64,000 nt of DNA from Flavobacteriaceae bacterium (lineage in GTDB: Bacteria > Bacteroidota > Bacteroidia > Flavobacteriales > Flavobacteriaceae). Position 1 is the first letter of the stretch. Each line of letters starts with the position of its first letter. Of the stretch, positions 36,551-48,697 are shown piece after piece. The DNA lies in NCBI GenBank assembly GCA_947456955.1, contig CANGTQ010000001.1:348538-412537 (forward strand). Direction: 5' to 3'. Made by a program: the position numbers and the translations under genes. The notes beneath the pieces were generated by a model. It had not been told where the DNA came from. It worked only from the letters and a program-made list of their open reading frames with translations, and did no database searches.

Positions 36551-36655
36551 AGCACGAAATTTCCGTATCAAAGAACGTTCAGTCCCGCTGTCCGCGCTAC
36601 ATGGTAGCTCGCTCCCATCGGGGCTAGAGAGAACGTTTTGTTTTCGGAAAGCAAT
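36551..36655. repeat. REP-like element 1, palindromic, with ATCGGGGCTA core
   Basis: An imperfect palindrome: TTTCCG...GAACGTTC on the left and GAACGTTTTG...CGGAAA on the right enclose GTCCCGCTGTCCGCGCTACA and TCGCTCCCATCGGGGCTA. The inner words TCCGCGCTACA, TCGCTCC and ATCGGGGCTA recur at 62517-62610. From memory, related elements are scattered in Flavobacterium genomes. Confidence 0.65.
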
Positions 36656-36717
36656 TAGAAAAGCATTGTCACACAGAGCTTGTCGACGTGCATACTTTTA
36701 TCAGCATAATATTAAAT

Positions 36718-36774
36718 CAGGATTACTCCGTGATCCTGTGTTTGGTCTCTATCACTAGTAAATCCTTTCGCGCT
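36718..36774. repeat. 57-bp direct repeat, copy A
   Basis: Begins CAGGATTACTCCGTGATCCTG and ends CCTTTCGCGCT. It matches copy B (36831-36887) at 51 of 57 positions. Its first 21 bases form a small hairpin (CAGGAT...ATCCTG). Confidence 0.75.
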
Positions 36775-36794
36775 CTTAACAACGTGCTTTTGTC

Positions 36795-36814
36795 ATTCCC
36801 GCGCAGGCGGGAAT
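36795..36814. repeat. ATTCCCGC-GCAG-GCGGGAAT palindrome
   Basis: A perfect 8-bp inverted repeat with a 4-base loop lying between the two copies of the 57-bp direct repeat; GC-rich against an AT-rich background. Confidence 0.7.
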
Positions 36815-36830
36815 CCATCACTACCTTTTG

Positions 36831-36887
36831 CAGGATTACTACGTGATCCTGAATTTGGGCTCTATTACAAGTAAATCCTTTCGCGCT
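36831..36887. repeat. 57-bp direct repeat, copy B
   Basis: Second copy of the 57-bp unit, 113 bases after copy A, also starting with a CAGGAT...ATCCTG hairpin. Confidence 0.75.
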
Positions 36888-36900
36888 TACAGCGCGATGT

Positions 36901-36957
36901 ATTTTTTATTTGAAAAAATAGGGCAAGCAAGCTTGGCTATTTTTTCAAATAAAAAAT
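36901..36957. repeat. Perfect 21-bp inverted repeat
   Basis: ATTTTTTATTTGAAAAAATAG (36901-36921) is the exact reverse complement of 36937-36957. The 15 bases between contain a further CAAGC/GCTTG pair. A long, near-complete cruciform not needed as terminator, since the tRNA-Pro terminator is the separate hairpin beside it. Confidence 0.85.
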
Positions 36958-36983
36958 CCTTTCTACAATTGCAGAAAGGATTT
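36954..36983 (-). terminator. Terminator of tRNA-Pro
   Basis: On the minus strand AAATCCTTTCT and AGAAAGGATTT form an 11-bp stem with an 8-base loop and a T run, 2 bases after the tRNA CCA end. Confidence 0.8.
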
Positions 36984-36985
36984 AC

Positions 36986-37063
36986 TGGTCGGGGTGGCAG
37001 GATTCGAACCTGCGACCTCCTGCTCCCAAAGCAGGCGCGATAACCGGGCTACGCTACACCCCG
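36986..37063 (-). tRNA. tRNA-Pro (anticodon TGG)
   Basis: Cloverleaf on the minus strand: acceptor CGGGGTG pairs with CACCCCG, discriminator A and encoded CCA at the 3' end. The anticodon arm CCTGC-TTTGGGA-GCAGG gives anticodon TGG, and GGTTCGAATCC is the T arm. It has its own TATATTTG box upstream and a terminator downstream. The 71-aa plus-strand ORF of the track that crosses it is an artefact. Confidence 0.97.
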
Positions 37064-48554: not shown

Positions 48555-48570
48555 GCATTTTAGAAAAAAT

Positions 48571-48663
48571 GGCAAGCGACCTACATCGCACCGCTCAACC
48601 ACATACCTTTGCTATGTTCCCATCCTGGAGGATTTTGCAGGAGCTGGTCGTGTAGGACTTGCC
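48571..48663 (-). ncRNA. ffs: 4.5S signal recognition particle RNA (small bacterial SRP RNA)
   Basis: On the minus strand GGCAAGTCCTACACG at the 5' end pairs with CGATGTAGGTCGCTTGCC at the 3' end, giving a long hairpin of about 93 bases. Its apical part CCTCCAGGATGGGAACATAGCAAAGG carries the conserved SRP features: a GGGAAC (GNRA-type) tetraloop and the AGCA of the symmetric loop bound by Ffh. A perfect promoter precedes it and a terminator follows. The RNA partners with Ffh in co-translational membrane targeting, on which proteins such as the rhodopsin depend. Confidence 0.92.
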
Positions 48664-48667
48664 GCTG

Positions 48668-48697
48668 CAAATATACAATCTTTTTATTTTTTTGCAA
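48668..48697 (-). promoter_or_regulatory. Promoter of the 4.5S RNA gene
   Basis: Minus strand TTG at 48697-48695, a 19-base spacer and TATATTTG at 48675-48668; the predicted start is within a few bases of the RNA 5' end. The TTGCAA palindrome is shared with the divergent promoter. Confidence 0.75.

Follow-up and report, generated by a model that had tools for sequence, protein, structure and literature searches.

A folded non-coding cassette behind tRNA-Pro in a Flavobacteriaceae genome, and the case for its insertion at tRNA ends

Overview

Directly 3′ of a tRNA-Pro(UGG) gene in a Flavobacteriaceae genome of 2.49 Mb lies a non-coding cassette of about 160 bp, a multi-hairpin structure closed by a long-range pairing (P1) and followed by a partial second copy. 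The stretch of DNA analysed here, 64,000 nucleotides at the end of contig C1, is referred to as the window. Related cassettes stand behind a few tRNA genes of Flavobacterium and its relatives, one of their hairpins usually has the same stem as the T-arm of the neighbouring tRNA, and corresponding sites in several relatives are empty. The reading that accounts best for these observations, and which we hold with somewhat better than even confidence, is that of a tRNA-targeted insertion cassette that is likely mobile.

A layered repeat block

The repeats on which the original prediction was based are all real and stand far above what shuffling of the block produces. They comprise a 57-nt direct repeat (36718-36774 and 36831-36887, 51/57 or 89% identical, spacing 113) and a 21-bp inverted repeat without a mismatch (36901-36921 and 36937-36957), both recovered by repeat search, as well as a CCCGC/GCGGG palindrome at 36792-36815; each 57-mer opens, as described, with a hairpin of its own (CAGGAT..ATCCTG). 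When the block was shuffled 200 times with its dinucleotides preserved, no inverted repeat was longer than 10 bp and no 57-bp repeat better than 32/57. The block is richer in G+C than the window (42% vs 32%) and, as originally described, free of genes: a 71-aa ORF at 36828-37043, which runs into the tRNA antisense, was treated as spurious. The relevant unit takes in both 57-mers and the inverted repeat and reaches the tRNA (36986), beyond the limits first drawn. The whole block (36551-36990) is a mosaic and not one REP/MITE, its layers being a decayed Flavo-1 copy, a CGTC-type REP, a third REP-like fragment and the tRNA-tied non-coding cassette. What appears as "repeat-dense" intergenic DNA is here a superposition of one tRNA-tied cassette and two or three independent repeat families.

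The sequence originally called a REP element is indeed part of a dispersed repeat, the family being Flavo-1 (RF01705; 36577-36629, minus strand, 34.0 bits, E 2e-5). Since it scores below the gathering score of 42, while 18 of the 26 matches found in this genome with the covariance model pass that cut-off, it is taken as a decayed relative. The Flavo-1 RNA motif is listed as a candidate structured RNA (PMC2864571, PMC9723704), and in the Flavobacterium psychrophilum transcriptome its matches lie on both strands and often outside transcripts (PMC9723704). With 26 matches here and none in 14 control genomes, the motif acts in this genome like a repeat dispersed over intergenic sites. It is unrelated to the tRNA cassette.

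The palindrome, too, had been rightly placed among dispersed repeats. It is a CGTC-type REP (GTCATTCCCGCGCAGGCGGGAATC, 36792-36815, plus strand) lying between the two units, and its pattern TGTCATTCCCGCGCAGGCGGGAATCCA occurs at 9 places of the genome with at most 3 mismatches, against 0 for a reversed-pattern control. The family is defined as a CGTC-tagged palindrome with a CCA tail and is said to have no dedicated enzyme (PMC3733652); the copy in the window shares the GTC at one end, the short-loop palindrome and the CCA tail, but starts with TGTC instead of CGTC, and the class accounts for 36792-36815 only, not for the rest of the block. Because it is missing both from a relative with two units (G266, nothing of the kind between them) and from one in which a single unit precedes the REP-like fragment and Flavo-1 (G343), the CGTC REP probably joined the lineage of the window late. 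The remaining fragment, a decayed REP-like repeat GTCACACAGAGCTTGTCGACGTGC (36666-36693, plus strand), has similar places on contigs C7 and C4 and a fuller palindrome in G343 (L306). Elsewhere in the same genome, a GIY-YIG gene carries CGTC-type REPs on both flanks (L242, C12:67770-68202).

The block had been suggested to be a mobile repeat of the REP/MITE type or a target of a RAYT-like transposase. As an explanation of the block as a whole, a REP/REPIN/MITE family mobilised by a RAYT is very improbable. The notion of mobile repeats suits the Flavo-1 and CGTC REP parts, which the genome-wide search showed to be dispersed (26 matches and 9 places, respectively), but it is rejected for the 57-mers, which have no near copies in their own genome beyond their array and whose relatives cling to tRNA 3′ ends. 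Moreover, no intact RAYT was detected in the genome, whose only Y1 (Tnp_REP superfamily) match is a broken IS200-like transposase gene with many in-frame stops about 50 kb away (L031:5380-5750). The outcome named as a refutation of the original prediction, all units single-copy and absent from relatives, was not observed.

Architecture of the cassette

Alignments yield a common architecture which, read on the tRNA strand, consists of the tRNA, the trailer A, A′ with a U-run, the hairpins hp2 and hp3, A″, a CCC linker and the hairpin hp4. In the window, all of these elements lie on the minus strand. The tRNA-Pro(UGG) gene (36986-37063; ARAGORN; Rfam tRNA 69 bits) encodes its CCA, and the cassette begins directly 3′ of it with the terminator hairpin T1 (A:A′, 36954-36983), recognised by its inverted repeat and sequence and followed by TTTTTTATTT. 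The 5′ arm of T1 (A, 36974-36986) doubles as the 5′ strand of P1. The 21-bp inverted repeat forms the long hairpin hp2 (36901-36957), which has a CAAG-CUUG-CUUG tip and contains the terminator U-run in its 5′ arm, so that the U-run is covered by hp2. It is followed by the GC-rich hairpin hp3 (CGCGCUGUAAGCGCG, 36882-36896), whose sequence varies in relatives with its pairing kept. A″ (GAAAGGATTTACT, 36870-36882) is the 3′ strand of P1, identified by inverted repeat and covariation as complementary to the tRNA trailer A, and the alignments then place a linker with a conserved CCC (36852-36869; CCCAA in unit 1) and hp4 (36831-36851), a T-arm mimic reading CAGGATCACGTAGTAATCCTG where the tRNA T-arm reads GCAGGTTCGAATCCTGC. 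Copy 1 of the 57-bp repeat (36831-36887) corresponds to the 3′ strand of P1 with the linker and hp4 of the first unit, and copy 2 (36718-36774) to a partial second unit with A″ (36757-36769), linker and hp4 (36718-36738). For the copy in the window, the folding energy is −56.4 kcal/mol (z = −8.05). Only tRNA and SRP RNA pass the Rfam gathering threshold within the window, none of them over the cassette, and sub-threshold searches gave no credible match over it either. The SRP RNA is the Bacteroidales small SRP RNA (RF04183, 90.6 bits) at 48566-48671 on the minus strand.

Distribution behind tRNA genes

A pattern scan of the whole GTDB returned 12 stretches, 11 of them behind tRNA-Pro and the twelfth at a contig end, and tRNA-Pro(UGG) adjoins every stretch long enough to show its neighbour. 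The relatives found by DNA pattern belong mostly to Flavobacterium and to other Flavobacteriaceae. Genome searches, for which an hp3-hp4 unit model was used, gave matches in 55 of 300 Flavobacterium genomes (E up to 0.01, where the weakest may be chance) and, in a sample of 348 genomes drawn from the whole order, in 18 (E up to 0.001). Flavobacterium relatives nearly always lie directly 3′ of a tRNA, with tRNA-Pro near the match in 23 of 27 loci scanned; sites were found behind tRNA-Pro(UGG), tRNA-Pro(GGG), tRNA-Tyr(GUA) and tRNA-Ser(GGA) and, in other genera, behind tRNA-Arg and tRNA-Val. In a sample of tRNA-Pro loci taken from the phylum at large, the majority had no cassette. In the genome of the window, there is a distant unit at tRNA-Tyr on contig C9 and a decayed remnant at the second tRNA-Pro; in all, traces of the cassette occur at only 3 of 32 tRNAs, the others that were inspected showing none. 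The number of units differs among relatives, with at least three in L305, two in L307 and one in L306.

Several candidate occurrences were discarded. Some weak matches of the R1 search (L208-L212, L176) have the appearance of chance matches, with no tRNA nearby and the wrong structure. Two matches 10 kb apart in G016, considered as a prophage or island, turned out to be separate arrays at two tRNA-Pro genes with ordinary genes between them. A phage origin was likewise rejected, the hp4 pattern giving 0 copies in viral contigs and blastn no copies in phages. In other Bacteroidota (L070, L078, L120), tandem 5′-truncated copies of tRNA-Pro with altered anticodon or T-loops stand directly behind tRNA-Pro. 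We found no account of the cassette in the literature on tRNA-linked repeats or on GIY-YIG genes at tRNAs, as covered largely outside subscription journals.

Covariation of the P1 pairing

P1 is supported by covariation. Across 23 sequence clusters, a trailer pairs with its own A″ at a mean of −18.6 kcal/mol, compared with −9.7 for the A″ of other loci, and the own-partner energy was reached by 0 of 20,000 permutations. In 50 of 52 loci, no more than 3 nt separate the start of the pairing from the tRNA end; where two consecutive units differ in their P1 arms (L055), each is nevertheless self-complementary. Part of this signal could stem from duplication of a terminator arm, A″ resembling A′, a concern which is answered only partly by the extra tRNA-side P1 pairs that are absent from the terminator (2.3 vs 1.4 with swapped partners; maximum 1.7 in 20 swaps). 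The molecule that folds could be RNA or single-stranded DNA, as both fit the P1 data.

One may ask whether the arrays are simply functionless products of tandem slippage in the terminator region, as their variable copy number between relatives would allow. This is quite improbable: the compensatory changes in P1, hp3 and hp4, together with the tracking of the T-stem described below, demand selection or templating, and the covariation already contradicts it. The strongest rival, which we find rather unlikely, is a cis-acting RNA of the tRNA transcript. According to this model, T1 would normally end the tRNA-Pro transcript; in read-through, A″ would displace A′ and hp2 would hide the U-run, while the T-arm mimic would compete for T-arm or processing enzymes and thereby set 3′-end maturation or the tRNA level. 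Such a role is consistent with the joint change of A, A′ and A″, with the covering of the terminator U-run by hp2, with the start of P1 at the tRNA end and with the usual match of hp4 to the adjacent T-stem. It sits poorly with the patchy occurrence of the cassette even within one genus (55 of 300 genomes), most tRNA-Pro genes and all but 3 of the 32 tRNAs of the genome of the window doing without it, and with a switch partner located 3′ of the very terminator whose formation it would need to block; in addition, the A″ of tandem units comes without an A of their own. Were the model correct, a widespread and unrecognised RNA would be carried on tRNA transcripts. A T-box-like pairing of the CCCAA linker with the anticodon loop UUGGG was also considered; it fits most first units, is absent from the later units of L042 and from L052 and L055, and was set aside.

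The T-arm mimic and repeated tRNA 3′ ends

The stem of hp4 is usually that of the T-arm of the adjacent tRNA: CAGG/CCTG at Pro-UGG, Tyr and Arg-UCU, CTGG/CCAG at Pro-GGG and CAAG/CTTG at Arg-ACG. The exceptions are L160 and L189, and the match is partial at Val and Ser-GGA, where hp4 and T-stem have only a GGG/CCC core in common. The T-loop TTCGAAT is replaced in hp4 by ATCA-apex-TAAT, and the apex is closed by C-G (55), T-A (17), G-C (3) or A-T (1) in 76 of 86 units, by T-G in 4 and left unpaired in 6.

Because the hp4 stem usually repeats the T-stem, and in some copies leads on into the acceptor 3′ strand, direct repeats of the tRNA 3′ end delimit the cassette. Some units end in the complete 3′ end of the adjacent tRNA, whose sequence continues for 16-18 nt past hp4 at L042, L055 (twice), L156, L166, L177, L182 and L200; in the window copies, this repeat has only 6-7 nt. 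One unit found without a tRNA (L155) has AATCCTGCCACCCCGAC or a near copy of it on both flanks.

Proposed insertion at tRNA ends

Three features by which tRNA-targeted elements are recognised, namely adjacency to a tRNA 3′ end, a distal direct repeat and an empty site in relatives, were found. In 8 relatives that have tRNA-Pro followed by trxB, a single terminator and no cassette separate the two, and the empty site of G290 keeps a terminator resembling that of filled sites; these sites could also reflect losses of the cassette. Within single genomes, the two tRNA-Pro loci of G409 and of G435 have tRNA and cassette in common (94% and 88%, respectively), and the Pro-GGG and Pro-UGG cassettes of G288 are 85-88% identical, with little alignable DNA outside tRNA and cassette in all three. 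This likeness between tRNA loci of one genome fits copying, either by movement or by gene conversion. The cassette itself encodes no integrase, and no recombinase, transposase or nuclease was tied to it.

Repeats of the tRNA 3′ end flanking the units might alternatively be scars of past phage or island integration at tRNA T-arms, left after deletion, with no element of their own. In keeping with this, tRNA-Pro of G177 (L223) is separated by about 17 kb, an apparent genomic island, from a second copy of its 3′ end, behind which a cassette lies; an autonomous integrase island was not retained there, no obvious integrase being seen by eye behind tRNA-Pro. We regard scars as an improbable explanation, as they would not be expected to share hp2, hp3, P1, linker and hp4, with compensatory changes in different genera and at different tRNAs, and no phage or viral copies were found.

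For the tRNA-targeted insertion cassette, the following mechanism can be proposed. On recombining into the T-arm, the element would rebuild the tRNA from the 3′ end that it brings along and leave the old 3′ end behind hp4, a course of events expected to give the bounding direct repeats. The joining site would be hp4 with AATCCTGC, opposite the T-arm; the presumed crossover identity is limited to AAT and the T-stem, the hp4 loop differing from the T-loop. Insertion could take place by site-specific recombination or by break-repair homing, with an enzyme acting in trans, and P1, hp2 and hp3 may have been retained since a single-stranded DNA or RNA form, the latter presupposing transcription, must fold. 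With age, copies would lose what is left of the acceptor and form tandem duplicates, the state seen in the window; Flavo-1 and the CGTC REP would have entered the block independently. More speculatively, and as a tentative proposal that may well prove wrong, the cassettes could represent a new class of miniature non-coding tRNA-homing elements of Bacteroidota, moving as a folded ssDNA or RNA circle, joining through a T-arm mimic that is adapted to each tRNA occupied, and perhaps mobilised by the GIY-YIG nucleases linked to tRNAs in the same genera. If insertion is the correct reading, geneless elements of about 160 bp at the tRNA ends of a major phylum have been missed by annotation and Rfam, their built-in copy of the target T-arm makes targeting testable, and the GIY-YIG cassettes found at tRNAs gain non-coding partners.

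Relationship to known systems

The cassette shares features with several systems. Like IS200/IS605 elements and REP/RAYT systems, it has hairpin ends, can be viewed among non-coding derivatives and needs no target duplication; unlike them, it was found with no TnpA or RAYT partner, and its target is a tRNA end. Integrative elements targeted to tRNAs, such as islands or phages that have a tyrosine recombinase and an attB in the T-arm, resemble the cassette in their insertion at the tRNA 3′ end, in the distal direct repeat of the tRNA 3′ part and in tandem occupation, whereas the cassette is about 160 bp long, non-coding and strongly folded, no integrase was found for it, and its hp4 loop is not identical to the T-loop.

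In strategy, although not by demonstrated descent, the non-coding cassette may be considered a relative of the homing-type GIY-YIG cassettes. In Flavobacteriaceae, cassettes with small GIY-YIG genes immediately follow tRNA-Pro, tRNA-Met and tRNA-Val (L224, L238, L251, L252, L254), and each ends in the 3′ half of a pseudo-tRNA whose anticodon loop has given way to another hairpin loop. At the tRNA-Pro of G022 (L254), GIY-YIG units of 350 bp are arranged in tandem and are near identical, and in G088 a GIY-YIG coding unit and then a non-coding unit of the cassette type follow one tRNA-Pro. Both kinds of cassette lie directly behind a tRNA and its terminator, end in a tRNA 3′-half copy in which one loop has been exchanged and occur in tandem; the GIY-YIG cassettes encode a small protein and alter the anticodon loop, while the cassette of the window is non-coding and alters the T-loop.
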